Virus record (IMG/VR): IMGVR_UViG_3300032246_000316
Span: 1-21,274 of that record
Direction: 5' to 3' (one strand)
From: a virus
Length of the DNA: 21,274 nt
Shown piece after piece: positions 3,052 through 16,979 of the stretch. The position numbers and the translations under genes are program-made. Under the pieces are notes generated by a model that was given only the letters and a program-made list of their open reading frames with translations, had not been told where the DNA came from and searched no databases. Numbering within the stretch: position 1 is the stretch's first letter; each line of letters opens with the position of its first letter.

Positions 3052-5637
3052 ATGGCCACCAACATTGACAAAGCGCTGTACCAAGCGCCTGCAGGTATCG
3101 ACCAAGCCGCCGAAGGCGAGCAGCCCATTGAGATTGAGATCGTAGACCCTGAAGCGGTCAAGATCGGCATTGATGGCATGGAGATTGAGATCACGCCAGC
3201 AGAGCCCTCGGCTGAAGACTTTGATGCCAACTTGGCGGAGTACATGGACGACGGCGAACTGGCGACAATCGGGGGCGATTTGGCCGGTGAAATTGAGCAA
3301 GACAAGAGCAGCCGCAAGGACTGGGAGAAAGCCTATACAGAAGGTTTGAAACTCTTAGGCCTGCAGATGGAAGAGCGCACGGAGCCTTGGAACGGCGCGT
3401 CTGGCGTGTTCCACCCAATGATTACAGAAGCGGTGGTGCGGTTCCAGTCCGAGACAATCACTGAGACGTTCCCAGCACAAGGCCCCGTGCGTACCAAGAT
3501 CATGGGCAAAGAAACCCCAGCCAAGCAGCAAGCGGCGGTGCGTGTTGAGAACGACATGAACTACCAGCTCACCGAGACAATGGTTGAGTTCCGCCCAGAG
3601 CATGAGCGCATGTTGTGGAGTCTGCCAGCTACAGGCTCTGCGTTCAAGAAGGTGTACTACGACCCGTCGTTGGGTCGTCAGGTATCTATCTTTATTCCTG
3701 CTGAAGACATGATCTTGCCTTACGGCTGCTCGGACATTCAGAGCTGCTACCGCGTTACCCATGTGATGCGCAAGACCAAGAACGAGCTCATCAAGCTGCA
3801 GCAAGCTGGGTTCTACCGCGACGTGGAGTTCGGTGAGCCAGACAAGAACTTAGGCGAGATTCAAAAAGCCAAAGACAAAGAGACTGGGTTTAGTGACTTG
3901 AACGACGATCGCTTCACGTTGTTGGAGTGCCACGTTGATCTGGACATCAAGGGCTACGAAGATTTGGATGACGACGGCGAGCCTACAGGCATCGCACTTC
4001 CCTACGTGGTGACGCTCATCAAGGGCACGAACACCGTGCTGTCAGTGCGTCGCAACTGGAACGAAGACGATGAGTTGAAACTCAAGCGCCAGCACTTTGT
4101 ACACTACCAGTACATCCCCGGCTTTGGCGCTTATGGCTTTGGTCTGTTCCACCTGATCGGGGGCTTTGCCAAGTCAGCTACCAGCATCATGCGTCAGTTG
4201 ATTGACGCGGGCACACTGTCTAACTTGCCCGGCGGTTTGAAGTCCCGTGGCTTGCGCATCAAGGGCGATGACACGCCGATCGCACCGGGTGAGTTCCGCG
4301 ACGTGGATGTGTCTTCAGGCAGTATCCGTGACAGCATTTTGCCGCTGCCTTATAAAGAACCCTCCGCCGTGCTGTCTAGTTTGTTGGACAAGATTGTGGA
4401 AGAGGGACGTCGCTTCGCTGCAACCGCGGATATGAACGTGTCGGACATGTCGGCTCAAGCCCCTGTGGGTACGACGCTGGCGTTGCTAGAGCGCCAGTTG
4501 AAAGTGATGACGGCCGTTCAGGCGCGGGTGCACTACGCCCTGAAGCAAGAGTTGCAACTCTTGCGCGACATTATTCGTGACTACACAGACGACTCGTACA
4601 CTTACGATCCAGAAGGCGCAGAAGGCCCCCGCGCTAAAAAAGCCGACTACGAAATGGTGGCAGTGATTCCGGTGAGCGACCCCAACGCGGCCACAATGAG
4701 CCAGCGGGTTGTGCAGTACCAAGCGGTCATTCAGATGGCGCAGATGGCTCCGGACATTTACGACTTACCACAATTGCATCGCAACATGCTGCAGGTGCTG
4801 GGAATTAAGAACGCCGACAAACTTGTGCCGCTGCCAGACGACCAGAAGCCAAAAGACCCCGTGGCTGAGAACATGGCCATCATCAAAGGCGAGCCGGTCA
4901 AAGCGTTTGCAGATCAAGATCATGACGCGCACATGGCCGTGCATGGCTCAATGATGCAGGACCCAACGGTGATGCAGGTTATTGGACAAAGCCCCAAGGC
5001 TCCTCAAATTCAAGCCGCCAACGCAGCGCACATGGCCGAGCACGTTGCCTTTAAGTACAAGCTCAGCATTGAGAAGCAGCTGGGCATGGCGATCCCCAAA
5101 GAAGACGAAGTGTTGCCAAGCGAAATTGCGAACGCTATGGCGGGCATGATGGCGCAAGCTGCGCAACAGATGCAGCAGCAAAACCAAGCGCAGGCCGCAC
5201 AACAGCAAGCGCAGCAGCAGCAACAAGACCCACTGATCCAGATGCAGCAGCAAGAGTTGCAGCTCAAGCAACAAGAAGTGCAGGTCAAGCAGCAAGAGGC
5301 GCAAGCCAAGATGCAAGAAACGCAAGCCAAGATTCAGCTAGACCAGCAACGCTTCCAGCTTGATGCACAAAAAGCACAGCAGGACTTCCAGTTGAAACAA
5401 CAAGCGGCACAGCTTGAGGCACAGCGCATGATTGTGGACGCCACGGCCAAGAACGACAAGATGGAGCTTGAGCAAGAACGTCTTAGAAGCTCCATGCAGC
5501 TCGACGGCATGAAGATGGGTGCCCAGATCAACCAGAGCAAAGCAAAAATGGAGGCCGATCAACACCGCGAAGGCGTGAAGATGGGTATTGACATTGCCAA
5601 AACACAACAACAAGTGAACAACACCAAAGGGGAATAA
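3052..5637 (+). CDS. Portal protein (P22-like, long C-terminal Gln-rich helix)
   Basis: An 861-residue protein directly after TerL. Portals are dodecameric rings at one capsid vertex through which DNA enters and leaves. Residues about 85-600 carry the portal body, including DWEKAYTEGLKLLGL, EPWNGASGVFHPMI, a segment around SLPATGSAFKKVYYD and the wing/stem region near RQLIDAGTLSNLPGGLKSRG. From about residue 700 to 855 the chain becomes an almost uninterrupted Gln/Ala/Lys helix with coiled-coil character. This matches the long C-terminal barrel known for P22-type portals and is evidence for a short-tailed virion. The ribosome binding site is weak (AAGA), and the gene starts 14 bp after TerL. 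Confidence 0.9.
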   Translation: MATNIDKALYQAPAGIDQAAEGEQPIEIEIVDPEAVKIGIDGMEIEITPAEPSAEDFDANLAEYMDDGELATIGGDLAGEIEQDKSSRKDWEKAYTEGLKLLGLQMEERTEPWNGASGVFHPMITEAVVRFQSETITETFPAQGPVRTKIMGKETPAKQQAAVRVENDMNYQLTETMVEFRPEHERMLWSLPATGSAFKKVYYDPSLGRQVSIFIPAEDMILPYGCSDIQSCYRVTHVMRKTKNELIKLQQAGFYRDVEFGEPDKNLGEIQKAKDKETGFSDLNDDRFTLLECHVDLDIKGYEDLDDDGEPTGIALPYVVTLIKGTNTVLSVRRNWNEDDELKLKRQHFVHYQYIPGFGAYGFGLFHLIGGFAKSATSIMRQLIDAGTLSNLPGGLKSRGLRIKGDDTPIAPGEFRDVDVSSGSIRDSILPLPYKEPSAVLSSLLDKIVEEGRRFAATADMNVSDMSAQAPVGTTLALLERQLKVMTAVQARVHYALKQELQLLRDIIRDYTDDSYTYDPEGAEGPRAKKADYEMVAVIPVSDPNAATMSQRVVQYQAVIQMAQMAPDIYDLPQLHRNMLQVLGIKNADKLVPLPDDQKPKDPVAENMAIIKGEPVKAFADQDHDAHMAVHGSMMQDPTVMQVIGQSPKAPQIQAANAAHMAEHVAFKYKLSIEKQLGMAIPKEDEVLPSEIANAMAGMMAQAAQQMQQQNQAQAAQQQAQQQQQDPLIQMQQQELQLKQQEVQVKQQEAQAKMQETQAKIQLDQQRFQLDAQKAQQDFQLKQQAAQLEAQRMIVDATAKNDKMELEQERLRSSMQLDGMKMGAQINQSKAKMEADQHREGVKMGIDIAKTQQQVNNTKGE

Positions 5638-8328: not shown

Positions 8329-9261
8329 ATGGCTATTTCCCGCGCACAACTGCTCAAAGAATTGCTTCCCGGTCTGAACGCTTTGTTCGGTATGGAGTAT
8401 GCACGTTACGGTGAAGAGCACACCGAGTTCTACGAAACAGAGAAATCTGAGCGTAGCTTTGAAGAAGAAACCAAGCTGGCCGGTTTCGGCGCTGCTCCGG
8501 TCAAGAACGAAGGTTCTGCCATTGCTTATGACAATGCGCAAGAAGCGTTCACTGCCCGTTACAGCCACGAGACCATCGCCTTGGGTTTCTCCATCACTGA
8601 AGAAGCTGTTGAAGACAACTTGTACGACAGTTTGTCTGCTCGTTACACCAAGTCTTTGGCTCGCGCCATGGCTTACACCAAGCAAGTTAAAGCTGCTGCT
8701 GTTCCAAACAACGGTTTCAACCAAAACTATCTTGGCGGCGACGGCGTGTCTTTGTTCGGCGTGAACTCTTCTGGTACTCGCGTTGGTCACCCACTCATCA
8801 ACGGTGGCGTGAACTACAACAGCCCAAGCACTATGGTTGACTTGAACGAAACATCGTTGGAAAACGCTGTTATTCAAATCGCCGCTTGGACTGACGAACG
8901 TGGTCTGTTGATCGCTGCTCAACCCCGCAAACTGATTATTCCTCCAGCACTGCAATTCGTTGCAACCCGCTTGTTGGAAACCAGCCTGCGTGTGGGCACA
9001 AACAACAACGACGTCAACGCGTTGAAAAACAACGGCTCTATCCCTGAAGGCTACGCTGTCAACCACTACTTGACTGACGTCAACGCATGGTTCTTGACTA
9101 CAGACGTGCCTAACGGTTTGAAGCATTTCGAGCGTACCCCATTGACAAACTCAATGGACGGTGACTTCGATACTGGTAACGTCCGTTACAAAGCCCGCGA
9201 GCGTTATTCGTTCGGCTGGTCTGACCCATTGGGCATGTTCGGTAGCTCCGGCTCGTTCTAA
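8329..9261 (+). CDS. Major capsid protein (HK97 fold, Mu gpT-like)
   Basis: A 310-residue protein with features of the Mu major-head-subunit (gpT) branch of HK97-fold capsids: LLPGLNALFGMEYARYGEEH at about residues 12-31, an acidic E-loop-like stretch ETEKSERSFEEETKLAGFG, then FTARYSHETIALGFSITEEA and YTKSLARAMAYTKQVKAAA (spine helix). The A-domain part includes LLIAAQPRKLIIPPALQFVA, and the protein ends in RYSFGWSDPLGMFGSSGSF. The ribosome binding site is strong (TAGGAG) and codon use is very biased, as expected for the most abundant virion protein. A strong terminator follows 25 bp after the stop. Confidence 0.92.
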   Translation: MAISRAQLLKELLPGLNALFGMEYARYGEEHTEFYETEKSERSFEEETKLAGFGAAPVKNEGSAIAYDNAQEAFTARYSHETIALGFSITEEAVEDNLYDSLSARYTKSLARAMAYTKQVKAAAVPNNGFNQNYLGGDGVSLFGVNSSGTRVGHPLINGGVNYNSPSTMVDLNETSLENAVIQIAAWTDERGLLIAAQPRKLIIPPALQFVATRLLETSLRVGTNNNDVNALKNNGSIPEGYAVNHYLTDVNAWFLTTDVPNGLKHFERTPLTNSMDGDFDTGNVRYKARERYSFGWSDPLGMFGSSGSF

Positions 9262-9282: not shown

Positions 9283-9308
9283 AAAAGGGGGCTTCGGCCC
9301 CCTTTTTT
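9283..9308 (+). terminator. Rho-independent terminator after the major capsid gene
   Basis: GGGGGC (9287-9292), loop TTCG and GCCCCC (9297-9302), extended by A/T pairs from AAAA and TTTT and followed by a 6-T run. The cUUCGg tetraloop makes this a very stable hairpin. It closes the head-assembly operon. Confidence 0.95.
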
Positions 9309-9663: not shown

Positions 9664-10050
9664 CTAGGGGGCTTCGGCCCCTTTTTTATTTTTCTTTTTC
9701 TTTTTAGCAGCCTGCCGTTCATCGTGGTGGTGAATACGGTGGCAGTTGGCACACAGAACCACACACTTTTTTGCTTCTTCCATTGCAAGGGCGTACTTGC
9801 CGTTACTAACCAAATCGTTTACGGACGTTGTTTTTGTGGCGGGGTCTATGTGGTGAAAGTCCAACACAGCTATGTGGTTAAACCCGCATTTTGTGCAGTA
9901 CAGCGTTGACTTGTACGCCTTCCAGTCTTTGCGCATCGAGGAGCGCCTGTCGGCGGAACGTTTCTTTGTTTCTTCTTTTGTCTTTTGGTAGTGCTTCGCC
10001 GAGTACTCTTTAGCTTTGGCTTTGTAAACTGCTGGGTCTTTGTAGGGCAT
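9664..10050 (-). CDS. HNH endonuclease (free-standing)
   Basis: A 128-residue protein from the ATG at 10050. That start is preferred because it overlaps the upstream stop as TAATG and has GGAG upstream; a 14-codon longer frame exists. A Lys/Arg-rich helical N-terminus (1-45) is followed by a zinc-knuckle HNH domain: C52-x2-C55, FHH at 65-67, C100-x2-C103 with N102, and HRIHHH at 104-109. These are the expected zinc ligands and beta-beta-alpha-metal catalytic residues. The Lys-rich tail (KKKKKNKKGAEAP) is encoded by the opposite strand of the neighbouring terminator. Free-standing HNH genes in phages are often homing-type mobile genes; some assist packaging cleavage, which is less likely here because the gene is far from the terminase. 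Confidence 0.88.
   Translation of the reverse strand: MPYKDPAVYKAKAKEYSAKHYQKTKEETKKRSADRRSSMRKDWKAYKSTLYCTKCGFNHIAVLDFHHIDPATKTTSVNDLVSNGKYALAMEEAKKCVVLCANCHRIHHHDERQAAKKKKKNKKGAEAP
9667..9687 (+). terminator. Rho-independent terminator after the acidic gene
   Basis: GGGGC (9668-9672), loop TTCG and GCCCC (9677-9681), followed by TTTTTT. It is nearly identical to the terminator after the capsid gene. It lies inside the 3' end of the minus-strand HNH reading frame, which it does not terminate because the T-run is only on the + strand. Confidence 0.9.
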
Positions 10051-10478
10051 TAGAGCTTCAATCTCCAGTAAAGCGTTTTGTCCGCACCCCAAGGAACAGT
10101 TGGGTCAAAAAGTTTGAACCCCTTTGCAATTAAGCTGTTTGAGGATGCGGGGTTGTCGTATGTGTCCGTGACAAGCCAGTTCCAACCTAGGGCGCGGGCT
10201 TGGCGGATGCGGACTCCGATGAGCTTTTTCTGCAGTCCTTTCCCACGATGCGCTGGTAGTACGCCTGCGCGACACATATAACCGCAATCACCCCAACGCA
10301 AAGAGGGAACAAGACCAGCAAAACCAACTTTGTTACCAGTCTCAGAGTAAACAATCCACCAGTAGCCAGATGTTGTAGCAGCAAGTTTGTCATAGGGTAA
10401 GCACTGTTTTTGAAGTTGGGTAAGCGCCAGCTGTGTGTCTGGACAGCTCAGGTCAGCACGATGGATTCTGTAGCGCAT
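10050..10478 (-). CDS. GNAT-family N-acetyltransferase
   Basis: A 142-residue protein with the GNAT fold signature: strand beta4 CRAGVLPAHRGKGLQKKLI (about 69-87), containing the acetyl-CoA pyrophosphate loop HRGKG, and the later NPASSNSLIAKGFKLF (about 109-124), typical of motif B. An upstream strand carries GNKVGFAGLVPS (48-59). The substrate cannot be deduced; GNATs acetylate small molecules, antibiotics or protein amines. It forms a two-gene minus-strand unit with the HNH gene, whose start overlaps its stop. It sits opposite to the structural genes, so it is best viewed as accessory cargo. The ribosome binding site is weak and somewhat distant (CCGGAAA). Confidence 0.85.
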   Translation of the reverse strand: MRYRIHRADLSCPDTQLALTQLQKQCLPYDKLAATTSGYWWIVYSETGNKVGFAGLVPSLRWGDCGYMCRAGVLPAHRGKGLQKKLIGVRIRQARALGWNWLVTDTYDNPASSNSLIAKGFKLFDPTVPWGADKTLYWRLKL

Positions 10479-11402: not shown

Positions 11403-11909
11403 ATGAACCAGACACCTGTAAAGCAGGCGCACATAAACGGCAGCGGGTTTTTAGTCCTTGGACGAAACCGTGTAAAAGCTATTTCTTTTACGGGAACAGC
11501 AAGCGCGGGTTTTTTGGCTTTGTTCGATACAACCACTGCGCCAGTAACAACTGCTACGTATGGGCGTTCCGGTACGACAGTAACCATTACGCAGTCTGCC
11601 CACGGGCTGACCACTGGCCAAGTGATTGGTATTGACTTTGCAGCAGGAACTGGTGGCACAGCCACCAACGGCAACTACGCAGTAACCGTTACCAACTCCA
11701 GCACGTTCACAATCACAGACATCAACTCGGGCACCATTACGGGTTCTCCCGGTCTTGTCTATGCAAGCCGTTGGCTGCTTTCGTATGATTGCAGCGCAGG
11801 TGATTCGTACAACAACTCGCCTTTTATCCCTGATGATGGTGTAGTTGCTGTTGATGGAATCTACGCTTATTTGTCCAACGTAGCAGCGGCAAATATTTAC
11901 TATGGCTAA
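11403..11909 (+). CDS. Virion-type protein with inserted beta module, 168 aa
   Basis: A 168-residue protein with an AAGGAG ribosome binding site. The flanks (1-50 and 118-168) look like one small beta protein ending DGVVAVDGIYAYLSNVAAANIYYG-like, interrupted at about 51-117 by a separate module with the pattern TVTITQSAHGLTTGQVIGI, then NGNYAVTV and TFTITD. That pattern resembles the FCCH-type beta module, often annotated after ubiquitin-activating E1 enzymes, that is found inserted in many phage structural proteins. Its end overlaps the next start by 8 bp. A surface or decoration role is likely but unproven. Confidence 0.65.
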   Translation: MNQTPVKQAHINGSGFLVLGRNRVKAISFTGTASAGFLALFDTTTAPVTTATYGRSGTTVTITQSAHGLTTGQVIGIDFAAGTGGTATNGNYAVTVTNSSTFTITDINSGTITGSPGLVYASRWLLSYDCSAGDSYNNSPFIPDDGVVAVDGIYAYLSNVAAANIYYG

Positions 11910-12171
11910 AGCTGCGCCCAAGAAAAAAGGCCCCTCACTGGCTGTCGGCCGTGGGGAAAAACTCCCTGTATCGAAAGGTGCAGGGCTGACTGCCAAGGGC
12001 CGTGCTAAGTACAACCGTGAAACGGGTAGTAACCTGAAGGCACCACAGCCAGAAGGTGGCCCCCGTAAAAAATCATTTTGCGCTAGGATGTCGGGTATGC
12101 CCGGGCCTATGAAGGATGAGAACGGTAAACCAACCCGCAAGGCAGCATCTCTTGCAAGATGGAAGTGTTGA
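11902..12171 (+). CDS. Small basic protein with C-terminal Cys, 89 aa
   Basis: An 89-residue Lys/Arg/Gly-rich protein whose ATG lies inside the previous gene's end. A disordered basic N-terminus is followed by AGLTAKGRAKYNRETGSNLK (about 27-46), KKSFCARMSGMPGPMKDENG (about 56-75) and PTRKAASLARWKC at the end. I recognise this arrangement as recurrent in marine and freshwater phages, where it lacks an established function. The high positive charge suits nucleic-acid binding or a packaged minor protein. It is first in a run of similar tiny genes. Confidence 0.75.
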   Translation: MAKAAPKKKGPSLAVGRGEKLPVSKGAGLTAKGRAKYNRETGSNLKAPQPEGGPRKKSFCARMSGMPGPMKDENGKPTRKAASLARWKC

Positions 12172-12172
12172 T

Positions 12173-12370
12173 ATGACTGAACACACTGAAACAGCAAAAT
12201 CTGTGGTTGATGCGTTGTCAATCATCACCGTAATAGGGACACTTGCAGAAATGCTTCCTTCAATCGCAGCTTTGTTCACGATTGTGTGGACGACCATTCG
12301 CATATGGGAAACCCCGACCGTGCAGAATTGGGTGACCAAGTGGAGAAAACACAATGCCGTCAACCAGTAA
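12173..12370 (+). CDS. Holin-like small membrane protein, 65 aa
   Basis: I start at the ATG at 12173, 1 bp after the previous stop and behind GGAAG, rather than at an in-frame ATG inside the previous gene. The 65-residue product has a short polar N-terminus, one or two hydrophobic stretches (about 13-43: VDALSIITVIGTLAEMLPSI then AALFTIVWTTIRIW) and a basic amphipathic C-terminus (VTKWRKH). This is the size and layout of small phage holins, which permeabilise the inner membrane to trigger lysis. No endolysin is found beside it, so a different membrane role remains possible. Confidence 0.5.
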   Translation: MTEHTETAKSVVDALSIITVIGTLAEMLPSIAALFTIVWTTIRIWETPTVQNWVTKWRKHNAVNQ

Positions 12371-12680
12371 AAAGCAACACAATTTCATGGAAGCGATAGC
12401 CCACTCGCCGTCGTTTGCCAAGAAAGTAGGCGTCCCACAGTCTGTGGGTAAAGATTTTTCAAACGCGGACAAGGGCCGCAAATTCTCAAAAGGTGGCGAT
12501 ATGAAAGCAATGAAACCAGCAATGATGGCCAAGGGCGGCTCCGCAATGTCCGCTAAAATGGGCGCAGTTAAAACCGCCGCTCCAAGCCGTGACGGTATTG
12601 CATCCAAGGGTAAAACCAAGGGCACAATGATTGTCATGAAGGGCGACAAAGGCATGAAACGCGGCGGCAAAGTCTGCTAA
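12354..12680 (+). CDS. Small basic Lys/Gly/Met-rich protein, 108 aa
   Basis: A 108-residue protein starting inside the end of the holin-like gene. The N-terminal part SKKQHNFMEAIAHSPSFAKK (5-24) followed by VGVPQSVGKDFS is compact and of a type seen repeatedly in phage genomes. The rest is a low-complexity Lys/Gly/Met/Ala chain with KGG units, ending KRGGKVC. Net charge is strongly positive and a single cysteine is the last residue. The last five residues nearly match those of the next protein (GGKAC). Function is unknown; nucleic-acid binding or packaging inside the head is a reasonable guess. Confidence 0.75.
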   Translation: MPSTSKKQHNFMEAIAHSPSFAKKVGVPQSVGKDFSNADKGRKFSKGGDMKAMKPAMMAKGGSAMSAKMGAVKTAAPSRDGIASKGKTKGTMIVMKGDKGMKRGGKVC

Positions 12681-12690
12681 GGAGCACACC

Positions 12691-12897
12691 ATGGCAAAAT
12701 TTAAAGCTGAACCAACGACTGAACCACGCCATATCATCGAAGACACTGCAAAGCGTTTTGGTGGTGATGGTCACAAGCCTGCATTTGAAGAGTACAAGAA
12801 GCACGCTGCGGGGCACCAGCTTGAGCACGAGCGTGTCAAAGCCATGTGCGGCGGTGGTATGACCAAAAAAATGAGCATGGGCGGCAAAGCCTGTTAA
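12691..12897 (+). CDS. Small protein with C-terminal GGKAC, 68 aa
   Basis: A 68-residue protein with an AAGGAG ribosome binding site just after the preceding stop. Residues 1-50 form a charged helical segment (PRHIIEDTAKRFGGDGHKPA, then FEEYKKHAAGHQLEHERVK). The tail CGGGMTKKMSMGGKAC resembles the end of the preceding protein. No known family is recognised. It carries several His and two Cys, but no clear zinc-site spacing. Confidence 0.7.
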   Translation: MAKFKAEPTTEPRHIIEDTAKRFGGDGHKPAFEEYKKHAAGHQLEHERVKAMCGGGMTKKMSMGGKAC

Positions 12898-12901
12898 ACC
12901 C

Positions 12902-13180
12902 ATGATGGCCAGCCGTGGTATGGGGGCCATCTCCCCCAGCAAAATGCCCAAAGGTAAAAAGATTACCCGCAAGGATGATCCGAATACCGTGGACATGTAC
13001 GCCGACGGCGGCAAGGTAAATGCTGCTGGCAATTACACAAAGCCCAGTTTGCGCAAGCGGATTGTGTCTCAGGTAAAAGCCGCGGCAACGCAGGGCACTG
13101 GCGCAGGCGAATGGTCCGCCCGTAAAGCACAGCTGGTGGCCAAAAAATATAAAGCCGCAGGCGGCGGTTACAGAGACTAA
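12902..13180 (+). CDS. Small basic protein, 92 aa
   Basis: A 92-residue protein starting 4 bp after the previous stop; Met1 and Met2 are equally possible starts. Around residues 33-45 it reads YADGGKVNAAGNY, continuing the GGK motif of its two upstream neighbours, but here followed by a C-terminal helical domain: TKPSLRKRIVSQVKAAATQG and WSARKAQLVAKKYKAAGGGY. The latter block is familiar from many phages as a small domain of unknown function. It is strongly basic. The pattern looks as if a GGK-ending small protein had fused to this domain. Confidence 0.75.
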   Translation: MMASRGMGAISPSKMPKGKKITRKDDPNTVDMYADGGKVNAAGNYTKPSLRKRIVSQVKAAATQGTGAGEWSARKAQLVAKKYKAAGGGYRD

Positions 13181-13181
13181 A

Positions 13182-13415
13182 ATGAAAGCACCGCAACAAT
13201 CCCTGAAGGATTGGGGCGACCAGAAGTGGCGCACCAAGTCCGGCAAACCGTCAAGCAAGACGGGGGAGCGGTATCTTCCTGAAGCGGCAATTAAGTCTTT
13301 ATCCTCCGCAGAATATGCGGCGACAACCAAAGCAAAACGCAAAGGTAAGGCGGCGGGCAAGCAGTTTGTGGCCCAGCCAAAGTCAGTTGCAAAGAAAACC
13401 GCGAGGTATAGATAA
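13182..13415 (+). CDS. Small basic protein, 77 aa
   Basis: A 77-residue protein beginning 1 bp after the previous stop and ending in a TAATG overlap with the next gene. Most of it is one basic domain: SLKDWGDQKWRTKSGKPSSK (7-26), TGERYLPEAAIKSLSSAEYA (27-46), then KAKRKGKAAGKQFVAQPKSV and AKKTARYR. This sequence type recurs in phages and some large DNA viruses without an assigned function. The Arg/Lys density suggests binding to DNA or RNA. Confidence 0.75.
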   Translation: MKAPQQSLKDWGDQKWRTKSGKPSSKTGERYLPEAAIKSLSSAEYAATTKAKRKGKAAGKQFVAQPKSVAKKTARYR

Positions 13416-13594
13416 TGGCTACTAAAAACTTTATTGCCGGTGCAATCAAAAAACCCGGCGCGTTGCGCAAAGAATTGGGTGCCAAAAAAGGCGAGCCAAT
13501 TCCTGCTAAAAAATTAGCGGCGGCGGCAAAGAAGCCCGGCATTGAGGGTAAACGCGCTCGCCTTGCTGAAACCTTGCGTAGCTTTAAAAAGTAA
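13415..13594 (+). CDS. Small basic protein, 59 aa
   Basis: A 59-residue frame starting at the TAATG junction with the previous gene and ending TAA at 13592-13594, 9 bp before the next start. It reads NFIAGAIKKPGALRKELGAK (5-24), KGEPIPAKKLAAAAKKPGIE (25-44) and GKRARLAETLRSFKK. It is easily missed because it is so short. The tight spacing, the coupled start and its resemblance to short conserved phage/viral proteins with an AIKKPGALRKxLG core support it as a real gene. Function is unknown; it is strongly basic. Confidence 0.75.
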   Translation: MATKNFIAGAIKKPGALRKELGAKKGEPIPAKKLAAAAKKPGIEGKRARLAETLRSFKK

Positions 13595-13603
13595 GGATAC
13601 GTC

Positions 13604-14509
13604 ATGTTTAACAGCCCTTTCGGTGGACCAACCGGTACATACGCCCAACAGGCGCAGCAGCCTATGCAACAACAAAGCTACGGCCAACAACAGCCTATGC
13701 AACAGCAAGGTTATGGCCAACAGGGTGGGTTTGGCGGCATGGGCGGGGGCTTTAATCCGTACCAGCAACAGATGCAAAGTCCTTACGGCCCACAGCAAGG
13801 TGGGTTTGGTGGCTATGGCGGTCAGCAAGGGGGCTATGGCGGCTATGGCGGGCAGCAACAAGGCTATGGTGGCATGGGCGGCTACGGTGGCATGGGTGGC
13901 TACGGCGGTGGTTTTGGCGGGCAACAGCAAGGCTATGGCGGCATGGGTGGCTATGGTCAGCAACAAGGCTTTGGTGGTTTTGGTGGGATGGGCGGCTACG
14001 GCCAGCAGCAGGGTATGGGCGGCTTCGGCGGCGGCATGGGCGGCGGGTTTAATCCGTACCAGCAAATGCAAAGTCCTTATGGCCCACAGCAAGGGGGCTT
14101 CGGGGGTGGCTTCGGGGGTGGTTACGGCGGCCCACAGATGCAAAGCCCTTACGGCCCTCAAATGGGTGGTTTCGGCGGTCGTGGAATGGATCGTGGGTTT
14201 GGCGGCAGAGATCGCGATGTTGGCAATCAATCCATGGGCGGCTATGGCGCACGACAAGACGGTTTAGACCAACGCGCTATTGATGCCAACCCAGAAGGGT
14301 TTGAGTCGTGGAACCAAGGCCGAGCACAACAAGGCGGTTTGTCTGGTATACGTGGTCCTGTTGTCACTAACCAGCAAGCATCACCGGCCCTCGGATCGCT
14401 GTCGGAAATGTTCCGTGGAGCCCCTCTTGGCGGCGGTGAGTCAAACACGGGTATGCAGGCTCAAGAATACAGCCCGTCCATCAGACCTAACACGTTCTCA
14501 CAAAGCTGA
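13604..14509 (+). CDS. Gly/Gln/Tyr-rich prion-like low-complexity protein, 301 aa
   Basis: A 301-residue protein with an AAGGA ribosome binding site. Residues 1-192 contain no Asp, Glu, Lys, Arg or His and use only ten amino acids (G, Q, Y, M, F, P, S, N, A, T), mostly as GYGG, GFGG, GMGG and QQQGYG units. A unit FNPYQQ(Q)MQSPYGPQQGGF occurs at about 50-68 and 149-166, with a shorter copy at 179-190, showing internal duplication. Residues 193-206 are RGG-like (GGRGMDRGFGGRDRD), and 210-301 is a less biased tail with a possible short helix (LGSLSEMF). There is no Lys or Cys anywhere. The composition resembles FUS-like or prion-like domains that self-associate. Its phage role is unknown; it could be a virion component or an assembly organiser. 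Confidence 0.85.
   Translation: MFNSPFGGPTGTYAQQAQQPMQQQSYGQQQPMQQQGYGQQGGFGGMGGGFNPYQQQMQSPYGPQQGGFGGYGGQQGGYGGYGGQQQGYGGMGGYGGMGGYGGGFGGQQQGYGGMGGYGQQQGFGGFGGMGGYGQQQGMGGFGGGMGGGFNPYQQMQSPYGPQQGGFGGGFGGGYGGPQMQSPYGPQMGGFGGRGMDRGFGGRDRDVGNQSMGGYGARQDGLDQRAIDANPEGFESWNQGRAQQGGLSGIRGPVVTNQQASPALGSLSEMFRGAPLGGGESNTGMQAQEYSPSIRPNTFSQS
13747..14094 (+). repeat. Direct repeat inside the Gly/Gln/Tyr-rich gene
   Basis: A ~48-bp unit beginning TTTAATCCGTACCAGCA occurs at about 13751-13800 and 14048-14094 with one 3-bp indel and single-base differences. A shorter related copy starts near 14138. The copies are about 297 bp apart and keep frame, so the gene has grown by in-frame duplication. Confidence 0.75.
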
Positions 14510-14526
14510 TACACACGGTAAAAATT

Positions 14527-15456
14527 ATGGCAACCTCTGGCGTAGCAGCATTTAACCTCGATCTCGCCGAGATCGTTGAAGAAGCGTTTGAGCGATGCGG
14601 TGCGGAGCTGCGTACGGGGTATGACCTGCGCACAGCGCGCCGGTCGTTGAACTTACTGTTTGCTGATTGGGCTAACCGTGGCGTCAACATGTGGACGTTT
14701 GAGCAGGGGACGATTACCTTGACTCCGGGCTTGGCCACCTATGCCTTGCCCACAGACACTGTGGATTTGTTGGAGCATGTCATTCGCACGGGCGCGGGAA
14801 GCGCATCTACCCAAGCCGACTTGACCATCACGCGGATCAGCGTGTCTACTTACGCCACGATCCCAAACAAACTCCAACAAGCACGTCCCATTCAGTTGTG
14901 GTTCCAACGCCTTGACGGCCAGCGCTCTTCTGTAGGGACAGTGTTGTCGGCATCAATCACCGCCACGGACACCACGATCACTGTGGCTTCGACTGCAGGC
15001 TTGGCTACAACCGGTTTTGTTTTGATTGGCACAGAGACCATCAATTACGGCTCCATCAGCGGCAACCAGCTTTTGTACTGCTCACGCGGGCAGGCAGGAA
15101 CTACAGCAGCTACGCACACCGCGGGCGACCCCGTGTATGCCCAAAATCTACCGTCTGTAACGGTGTGGCCAACCCCAGACAATACCCAAACATACCAACT
15201 CGTGTACTGGCGTATGCGCCGCATTGATGATGCTGGCGGTGGTGTGAACACAATGGATGTTCCGTTTAGATTTCTGAACTGCATGGTGGCTGGTTTGGCA
15301 TACTACCTTGCGTTAAAAGTGCCCGATGGCGCACAACGACTTGATGTGCTCAAAGCCCAATACGATGAAGCGTGGCAGCTGGCTTCCGAAGAAGACCGCG
15401 AGAAAGCCGCGGTACGGTTTGTCCCCCGCCAGATGTTTATTGGAAGCGGTACGTAA
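14527..15456 (+). CDS. Head-tail adaptor / head completion protein candidate
   Basis: A 309-residue protein. The N-terminal helical part (FNLDLAEIVEEAFERCG, then LRTARRSLNLLFADWANRG, about 9-52) and a beta stretch (LTPGLATYALPTDTVDLLEH, 65-84) are characteristic of podovirus portal-adaptor proteins in the P22 gp4 / T7 gp11 position. The C-terminus contains YQLVYWRMRRIDDAG and a helical tail ending DREKAAVRFVPRQ. Residues about 137-205 form an inserted beta module (ITATDTTITVASTAGL, INYGSISGNQLLYCSRGQAG) of a kind found in many phage proteins. The role would be to seal the portal after packaging and connect it to the tail. The ribosome binding site is weak. Family-level confidence is moderate. 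Confidence 0.65.
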   Translation: MATSGVAAFNLDLAEIVEEAFERCGAELRTGYDLRTARRSLNLLFADWANRGVNMWTFEQGTITLTPGLATYALPTDTVDLLEHVIRTGAGSASTQADLTITRISVSTYATIPNKLQQARPIQLWFQRLDGQRSSVGTVLSASITATDTTITVASTAGLATTGFVLIGTETINYGSISGNQLLYCSRGQAGTTAATHTAGDPVYAQNLPSVTVWPTPDNTQTYQLVYWRMRRIDDAGGGVNTMDVPFRFLNCMVAGLAYYLALKVPDGAQRLDVLKAQYDEAWQLASEEDREKAAVRFVPRQMFIGSGT

Positions 15457-15846
15457 ATGGGCAATCGGTTTGCTTCTGGAAAAAACAGTATTGCTATATG
15501 CGATCGCTGTGGTTTCCAATTCAAATTGACGGCCTTAAAGAAGGAAGTCATCAAGACAAAGATTTATAATCTGCTGGTCTGTGGTTCTTGTTGGGACCCG
15601 GATCAACCGCAGTTGCAGTTGGGTATGTACCCAGTTGATGATCCTCAAGCGGTGCGCAATCCTCGTCGTGATACAACGTATGTGACGGCTGGCCCTAATG
15701 CACAAGGCTCGCTGACTGGCGGTTCACGGGATACTCAGTGGGGCTGGAACCCTGTTGGGGGGTCGAGTTCTTTTGATAACGGTCTGACACCAAACTACTT
15801 GTCCTTGGCAGTACAACTTGGTACAGTCACAGTGGTAACAACCTAG
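15457..15846 (+). CDS. Zinc-ribbon virion-type protein, 129 aa
   Basis: A 129-residue protein whose ATG directly follows the previous TAA. Residues 15-45 form a four-cysteine zinc ribbon: C15-x2-C18 in ICDRCGF and C42-x2-C45 in VCGSCWD, joined by a basic segment LKKEVIKTKIYNLL. Next comes MYPVDDPQAVRNPRRDT and then a Gly/Ser/Thr-rich beta-type C-terminus. Lying between two adaptor-like genes it is most likely a minor connector or tail component that binds zinc for stability. A DNA-binding role is possible but less supported. Confidence 0.75.
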   Translation: MGNRFASGKNSIAICDRCGFQFKLTALKKEVIKTKIYNLLVCGSCWDPDQPQLQLGMYPVDDPQAVRNPRRDTTYVTAGPNAQGSLTGGSRDTQWGWNPVGGSSSFDNGLTPNYLSLAVQLGTVTVVTT

Positions 15847-16307: not shown

Positions 16308-16979
16308 ATGAACTACGCCGACCTTGTAACTGCGGTCTCCAACTATACGGAGAACACATTTCTGACTGCCGAGATGAATACGTTCATCAAGCAGGCGGAG
16401 CAGCGCATTTACAACTCGGTGCAGTTTCCTTCGTTGCGTAAGAACGTCACAGGGACGATTACGGCCAACAACAAATACTTGTCGTGCCCACTGGACTATC
16501 TTTCGAGTTACTCGCTGGCGGTAATTGATGCCACAGGTGCGTATGAGTATTTGTTGAACAAGGATGTCAACTTTATCCGCCAAGCGTACCCACAGCCAAC
16601 AGACACAGCGATCCCTAAGTACTACGCTTTGTTTGGCCCCAACTCAACTGCGCCAAATGAGTTGTCGTTTATTCTTGGCCCAACACCGGATGCAACGTAC
16701 AGCGTAGAGCTGCACTACTTCTTCTATCCTGAGTCGATTGTGACTGCAGGTACTACATGGCTTGGCGACAACTTTGACACCGTTCTGCTATACGGCACAC
16801 TGGTGGAAGCCTATACATTCATGAAGGGTGAGACCGACATGATGCAGCTGTACGACAGTAAGTACAAAGAAGCCCTCCAGTTGGCTAAGCGTTTGGGCGA
16901 TGGCTTGGAGCGTTCCGATAGTTACAGAAGCGGACAGTACCGTACGGCACCCCTGCCCCAGAATAGAGGGGTGGCTTAA
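16308..16979 (+). CDS. Tail adaptor-type protein, 223 aa
   Basis: A 223-residue protein beginning 1 bp after the previous stop. It opens with a helical part (VTAVSNYTENTFLTAEMNTF, IKQAEQRIYNSVQFPSLRKN), continues with a beta core (YLSCPLDYLSSYSLAVIDAT; LSFILGPTPDATYSVELHYF) and ends in a helix (LLYGTLVEAYTFMKGETDMM; YKEALQLAKRLGDGLER). This helix-beta-helix plan fits the adaptor or tail-tubular class of short-tailed phages. It resembles in outline the protein at 14527, so one may contact the portal and the other the nozzle; which is which cannot be told from sequence alone. Confidence 0.65.
   Translation: MNYADLVTAVSNYTENTFLTAEMNTFIKQAEQRIYNSVQFPSLRKNVTGTITANNKYLSCPLDYLSSYSLAVIDATGAYEYLLNKDVNFIRQAYPQPTDTAIPKYYALFGPNSTAPNELSFILGPTPDATYSVELHYFFYPESIVTAGTTWLGDNFDTVLLYGTLVEAYTFMKGETDMMQLYDSKYKEALQLAKRLGDGLERSDSYRSGQYRTAPLPQNRGVA

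Follow-up and report, generated by a model that had tools for sequence, protein, structure and literature searches.

Prion-like, sticker-and-spacer sequences have been studied mostly in eukaryotes. Eukaryotic prion-like domains of the FUS family, and GGFG repeats of the FG-nucleoporin type, are uncharged, disordered and rich in Gly and Gln, with evenly spaced aromatic residues. Among phages, PLAAC predicted prion-like regions in 5040 of 370,617 proteins (1.35%), and the largest functional group among them was attachment and penetration (Tetz and Tetz 2017, PMC5694896). In phage T7 the small ejected virion proteins gp7.3 and gp6.7 are located at the adaptor-nozzle junction and core; the C terminus of gp7.3 is ordered at the junction, and its positively charged N terminus is unstructured around the DNA in the portal-tail channel (PMC11784390). 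Phage SU10 has five ejection proteins, gp20-gp24, without resolved density in the virion, which were recognized by comparing virions with genome-release intermediates (PMC9509320).

P0001 is a low-complexity (LC) protein encoded in a complete virus record of 21,274 bases, the whole of which was analysed (the window). Like the FUS-type and GGFG domains, it has an uncharged G/Q body that is predicted to be disordered, with spaced aromatic residues and an Arg patch after them. It differs from FUS-type domains in its high Gly content (41%), in having little Ser or Asn, no RGG and no RNA-binding domain, and in that no homology was detected. Its prion-like composition is shared with the phage set of Tetz and Tetz; the largest group in that set consists mostly of tail, tail fibre and baseplate proteins, whereas P0001 belongs to a stand-alone LC family in a head-adaptor cluster, with no PHROG. 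The original prediction had considered such a sequence unusual in a phage structural operon. The LC gene does sit among head genes, but prion-like regions as such already occur in 1.35% of phage proteins (PMC5694896).

P0001 and the T7 proteins have in common a podophage setting, an unstructured region with a short docking segment (predicted in the case of P0001), and a place in the particle that we propose to be analogous. In contrast, gp7.3 is short and basic, P0001 is long and neutral, and no sequence similarity has been established; searches of PHROG, Pfam and PDB revealed no sequence or profile similarity between P0001 and known ejection proteins. The connection with SU10 is that the adaptor encoded next to P0001 belongs to the SU10_adaptor Pfam family, although the SU10 ejection proteins were defined from particles and P0001 from its sequence. 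Prion-like phage proteins are a kind already known (PMC5694896). What is new, within the databases searched, is a stand-alone family that occupies a fixed place by the adaptor, is accessory in its distribution and shows evidence of selection.

The LC protein and its gene neighbourhood

Judged by its genes for terminase, portal, a GroES-like protein and capsid, the window is allied to DSL-LC04, Pag-Yong1 and the pelagiphages of the HTVC023P type. Upstream of the LC gene, 11902-13594 encodes a series of small and strongly basic proteins (pI mostly 10.4-10.9), as had been expected of the genes adjacent to it, and downstream lies a SU10_adaptor-family gene (Table 1). K59 falls below the length cut-off of the open reading frame list and lies between the gene for the 77-residue protein and the LC gene. 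A ribosome-binding-site-like AAGGA is found upstream of the P0001 ATG.

Table 1. Coordinates of P0001, its parts and neighbouring genes in the window
Feature	Coordinates	Strand	Basis or remark
Portal protein, C-terminal tail long and Q-rich	3052..5637	+	Profile match
Major capsid protein (Phage_capsid_4)	8329..9261	+	Profile match
Small basic protein with DUF6321	11902..12171	+	Profile match
Small basic protein (phrog_16759), contains SRDGIASKGKTKG	12354..12680	+	N terminus matches virion structural protein profiles
Small basic protein (phrog_17747)	12902..13180	+	Profile match
77-residue basic protein (phrog_14910, function not known)	13182..13415	+	Conserved left border of slot
K59, 59-residue K/A-rich basic protein, pI 10.9	13415..13594	+	Overlaps stop of 77-residue gene; variable slot occupant
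P0001, LC protein, 301 residues	13604..14509	+	ATG start; open reading frame, family comparison
P0001 residues 1-192, charge- and aliphatic-free G/Q/Y/M/F/P body	13604..14179	+	Composition, spacing, repeat comparison
P0001 residues 193-207, Arg/Asp patch RGMDRGFGGRDRDVG	14180..14224	+	RG-rich in relatives
P0001 residues 223-243, helix, sole predicted secondary structure	14270..14332	+	AlphaFold2, pLDDT about 79 at 231-240
Head-tail adaptor (Pfam SU10_adaptor)	14527..15456	+	Conserved right border of slot
Second SU10_adaptor-family protein	16308..16979	+	Pfam match

The first 192 residues of P0001 comprise only ten residue types (G79 Q43 Y18 M14 F13 P13 S5 N3 T2 A2), with Gly at 41%, Gln at 22%, Tyr plus Phe at 16%, Ser at 2.6% and Asn at 1.6%. 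Asp, Glu, Lys, Arg, His, Leu, Ile, Val, Trp and Cys are absent, and the earliest charged residue is Arg-193. Tests of the other 23 proteins of the window gave 33 residues as the longest run lacking these ten types. The aromatic residues are evenly spaced: the coefficient of variation of the Tyr/Phe gaps is 0.377, compared with 0.870 +/- 0.144 for shuffled sequences (0 of 5000 shuffles were as low), and inclusion of Met gives 0.370 compared with 0.846. The same even spacing relative to shuffles was found in four family members built from different repeat units (P0001, L163, L164 and L227; L-numbers denote fetched contigs or loci of relatives). In P0001, 21 of the 31 aromatic residues stand in [GSQ][YF][GSQ] contexts, and three copies of QMQSPYGPQ(Q/M)GGFGG are present in the body. 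Part of the regular spacing is due to tandem DNA repeats of 18-33 bp in the gene.

These properties bear directly on the original prediction. The ten-type composition that it had given for residues 1-192 agrees exactly with our count, and the regular placement of Tyr, Phe and Met that it had noted holds with or without Met. The grammar it had read in the sequence (charge-free and G/Q-rich, with spaced aromatics and a later Arg patch) is conserved in the family and is under purifying selection. The description 'FUS-like' is apt for the uncharged G/Q-rich body and its spaced aromatics but overstated in view of the low Ser and Asn content. P0001 shares with FUS-type domains their biased composition, even aromatics and (by AlphaFold2) predicted disorder; it lacks the clustered RGG tripeptides of an RGG/RG box and, in Pfam searches up to E = 1, the RNA-recognition or zinc-finger domain that FET/hnRNP proteins carry in the same chain. 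'RGG-like' was likewise too strong a term for the segment after the body. This segment (GGRGMDRGFGGRDRD) is Arg-bearing, with RG and RD dipeptides, and lacks the RGG tripeptide, whereas relatives have RG or RGG runs at the equivalent position (GRGRGRG in L254, many GRGG in L249).

AlphaFold2 was run on P0001 with 27 family members. P0001 is predicted to be almost wholly disordered, with a mean pLDDT of 48.4, no secondary structure in residues 1-222 and the helix of Table 1 as its only ordered element. In L274, residues 1-165 are predicted to be disordered and residues 168-240 helical (pLDDT about 70-88). The motif [RK]AI.A.P..F in the helix region of P0001 is shared by L263, L276 and L283; a comparison of the conserved helical segment and the AI.A.P..F motif with phage records gave no convincing match. 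Pfam searches with P0001 returned nothing up to E = 1, and neither a signal peptide nor a membrane segment is visible in its sequence.

Self-attraction was assessed by single-chain coarse-grained Monte Carlo simulation with CALVADOS-2-type parameters; the values are indicative only. Four LC bodies gave scaling exponents nu of 0.46-0.49, compared with 0.54-0.58 for the controls (the P0001 C-terminal part, the portal Q-tail, a charged slot protein and a putative scaffold segment). This single-chain result suggests that the LC bodies are net self-attractive, a property distinct from phase separation.

The portal tail is itself Q-rich with repeats at about residues 700-861, with tandem repeats at 5172-5333. 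The adaptor contains an insert at about residues 133-204 that matches tail fibre, baseplate and virion structural protein profiles, and adaptor inserts or fused domains vary among members (for example L003:32740-33837). Two minus-strand genes (9664-10478) separate the capsid gene from the next structural gene and were judged by eye to be an HNH-endonuclease-like (9664-10092) and an acetyltransferase-like (10050-10478) open reading frame. Terminator-like hairpins are present near this pair, at 9283-9306 and 9666-9683, and the pair is probably a cargo insertion.

A family at a fixed position, with patchy presence and a conserved body

Neither tblastn nor a locus search at the protein level gave any match to P0001, partly as a result of low-complexity masking. 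The LC family was recovered by unmasked local tblastn and then by codon-motif scans. An alignment of the first orthologues yielded the motif QMQ[S/N]P[Y/F], and 2.9 million viral contigs were scanned in two runs for codon-degenerate forms of it, without regard to neighbouring genes. At least 43 distinct viral contigs were identified, and on every one listed the slot between the 77-residue gene and the adaptor codes for a protein rich in Gly, Gln and aromatic residues. The 77-residue gene was found on 42 of the 43 listed contigs, the remaining one starting inside the open reading frame, and the adaptor on 37, the other 6 being cut by contig ends. P0001 itself has the motif, the G/Q-rich body and the position that define the family. 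On the evidence of sequence, this is a previously unlisted family carried by some freshwater phages at one fixed spot by the adaptor gene. No match above chance was obtained in PHROGs or Pfam with P0001 and the tested members, and no PDB chain matched P0001; a position-conserved protein family had been overlooked by masked BLAST and profile libraries. Unmasked G-rich matches 7-10 kb downstream of the adaptor lay in other genes and were dropped as composition matches, and a generic G[YF]GQQ pattern retrieved two phage proteins unrelated to the family.

The members form at least 26 clusters of 103-469 residues (the shortest is a contig-end fragment) with differing sub-architectures. The bodies include long GQQGGY hexapeptide arrays (L256), F-rich (L254) and M/Y-rich (L248) types, and the repeat grammar is conserved in the family, contrary to the concern, raised with the original prediction, that homologues might not conserve it. 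The C-terminal modules are exchangeable and comprise a helical segment ending in QQLQDLQGK, D.[RK]AI.A.P..F, [TS]MDMPQ and YQGG ends. L055, L016 and L238 lack the QMQ motif yet have a helical segment or N terminus common to members. The C terminus of the LC protein of L250 (L250:5974-6930), LQLGMYPVDDPQ, matches part of the zinc-ribbon-like protein encoded beyond the adaptor (15457-15846 of the window), which suggests module swapping across the adaptor gene.

The LC gene is accessory: most related phages lack it, including two of the nearest. Relatives were gathered via the 77-residue, capsid and adaptor genes, and among the matches listed 168 contigs show the slot with its two borders. The slot is empty in 102 of these and holds a long LC protein in 9, the window included; in the remainder it is occupied by basic genes of the K59/K88 type, by genes for tag-bearing proteins or by others. 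Two contigs have slot genes judged by eye to be homing-endonuclease-like (GIY-YIG-like at L012:1164-1805 and LAGLIDADG-like at L085:1356-1970). The slot acts as a hot spot for insertions, and its residents need not be structural because homing-endonuclease-like genes enter it too. L162 and L165, whose adaptors are 92% identical to that of the window, have an empty slot; L163 and L164 have an LC orthologue there. An adaptor tree of 152 contigs requires at least 12 changes of LC state, 8 of them forced by well-supported branches; this tree is enriched for LC carriers and so informs patchiness rather than frequency. The absence of the LC gene from most near relatives makes an essential role in assembly unlikely.

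Of the named or cultured relatives, DSL-LC04, 023Pt_psg01, HTVC023P, HTVC027P, Pag-Yong1, CRP-901, QDWS535 and Caulobacter RW showed no LC member among the inspected genes that lie from capsid to adaptor. The stretch in Pag-Yong1 encodes a P/R/G-rich protein of 308 residues that is unrelated to the LC family. None of the small genes nearby co-occurred significantly with the LC gene among the fetched loci, and host inference from MAG bins was too scattered to use. An unrelated phage contig, L309, encodes a Q-rich, disordered-looking protein of 550 residues near a K59 homologue, a hint that Q-rich proteins may move together with K59.

Selection on the LC gene was assessed by DNA-level alignment of close relatives, in which the codon alignment of repeats is imperfect and errors of repeat-unit registration can inflate synonymous counts. 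Synonymous and nonsynonymous differences in the LC body numbered 25 and 0 for L246/L254 (166 codons), 17 and 0 for L246/L247, 25 and 1 for L261/L254, and 27 and 1 for L251/L254. A loss-free alignment of the first 60 codons gave the same pattern in 5 of 6 pairs (L246/L254: 6 synonymous, 0 nonsynonymous), the exception being L253/L254 (11 synonymous, 9 nonsynonymous). The repeat copies within P0001 also differ almost exclusively at synonymous positions. Since change is predominantly synonymous both between relatives and between internal repeats, residue composition and placement are maintained rather than drifting. The C-terminal part, with pN/pS of 0.26-1.15 in 5 of 6 pairs and 0.13 in L253/L254, appears to evolve more freely or to be swapped. 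In L251/L254 this part is highly divergent and the protein sequence of the body nearly identical, which points to module exchange.

The LC family presents prion-like sequence as a whole small gene of a prokaryotic virus, with natural presence/absence variants, swappable C-terminal modules, Y/F/M sticker substitutions among relatives and measurable selection. It is a compact system in which to ask what prion-like composition does for a virus.

Possible roles of P0001

Since evolution has kept its odd composition, P0001 probably has a part in virus assembly or in the particle as a flexible and sticky component. The neighbours of P0001 are head, portal and adaptor proteins, and the gene at 12354 matches virion structural profiles; from this position we infer that P0001 is virion-associated. 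Our preferred reading, to which we assign a probability of roughly 45%, is that P0001 works, as a disordered accessory, at the head-tail junction or in the head interior, where its C-terminal helix would anchor it and it would act through weak multivalent contacts. P0001 would then belong to an accessory, position-locked disordered family in the head genes of HTVC023P/SU10-related podophages. The uncharged G/Q body, with its evenly spaced Y/F/M stickers, would weakly attract itself and similar chains, and the short C-terminal helix and linear motifs would dock the protein, the likeliest partner being the portal/adaptor junction or a head-interior protein. P0001 would probably travel with the virion, within it or on it, filling the head-tail junction or the head interior as a sticky and flexible material that may tune assembly, stability or genome release. 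It would be a bonus part and not an essential one, because many sister phages do without the LC gene.

Several other roles were considered. P0001 might phase-separate in the infected cell as an unpackaged scaffold that concentrates capsid or portal components and small basic proteins. A charge-free sticker-and-spacer body with even aromatics and a composition under selection suits such a condensate, as does the tighter packing of LC bodies than controls in the coarse-grained model, and the Arg patch and strongly basic neighbours are possible partners. We regard this as possible but doubtful, because many sister phages assemble without the LC gene and a scaffold-like gene, judging by its position, probably already lies upstream of the capsid gene. 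The hot-spot character of the slot, so often empty or filled with K59-type, tag-bearing or homing-endonuclease-like genes, and the repeated changes of LC state on the adaptor tree would fit an accessory 'moron' with a host-directed, non-structural role in exclusion, the envelope or phase-separating host modulation. This is unlikely given that the LC gene is part of the head-gene run, sharing its strand and separated from its neighbours by short gaps, that promoter-like sites in the region are not above chance and that no signal peptide or membrane segment can be seen; the occurrence of one family in one fixed place on many branches also suggests a local functional link.

An improbable alternative is a sticky coat or adhesin on the particle surface, like flexible decorations with affinity for mucus, polysaccharide or other particles. 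Flexible G/Y/Q-rich chains fit weak adhesion, and attachment and penetration form the top functional group of phage prion-like proteins (PMC5694896), but the gene lies with head and adaptor genes, away from the fibre genes, and P0001 has no predicted folded binding domain and no fibre-family match. Neutral repeat expansion by replication slippage, or a spurious open reading frame, is very improbable. The tandem DNA repeats, whose units are gained and lost between relatives, are as such expansion would leave them, but the LC body is almost free of nonsynonymous change while synonymous sites vary, and the occurrence of a like protein in a like place in all of the at least 43 contigs already contradicts it; slippage junk was ruled out by the codon evidence from relatives and internal repeats. 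For a packaged P0001, a long shot is a plug or condensate, selective and gel-like, which P0001 would build with the adjacent basic proteins in the portal-adaptor channel or around the packaged DNA end and which would dissolve on ejection. P0001 would in that case be the phage counterpart of a hydrogel of the FG-nucleoporin or prion-like type.

A C-terminal tag with the consensus (S)RADGIAxRGKTRGK recurs on many small proteins encoded in the head-gene region, which are otherwise unrelated; P0001 is without it. There were 331 open reading frame matches at 193 loci, which are upper counts in that some loci were fetched twice, and 200 of the 331 lie within six residues of the C terminus. The tag occurs on proteins with 245 different N termini, with up to 4 per locus, and may be a shared docking, sorting or packaging signal of the region. 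Examples are found at 12354-12680 in the window and at L233:7603-7989, L187:2024-2425 and L005:26232-27158.
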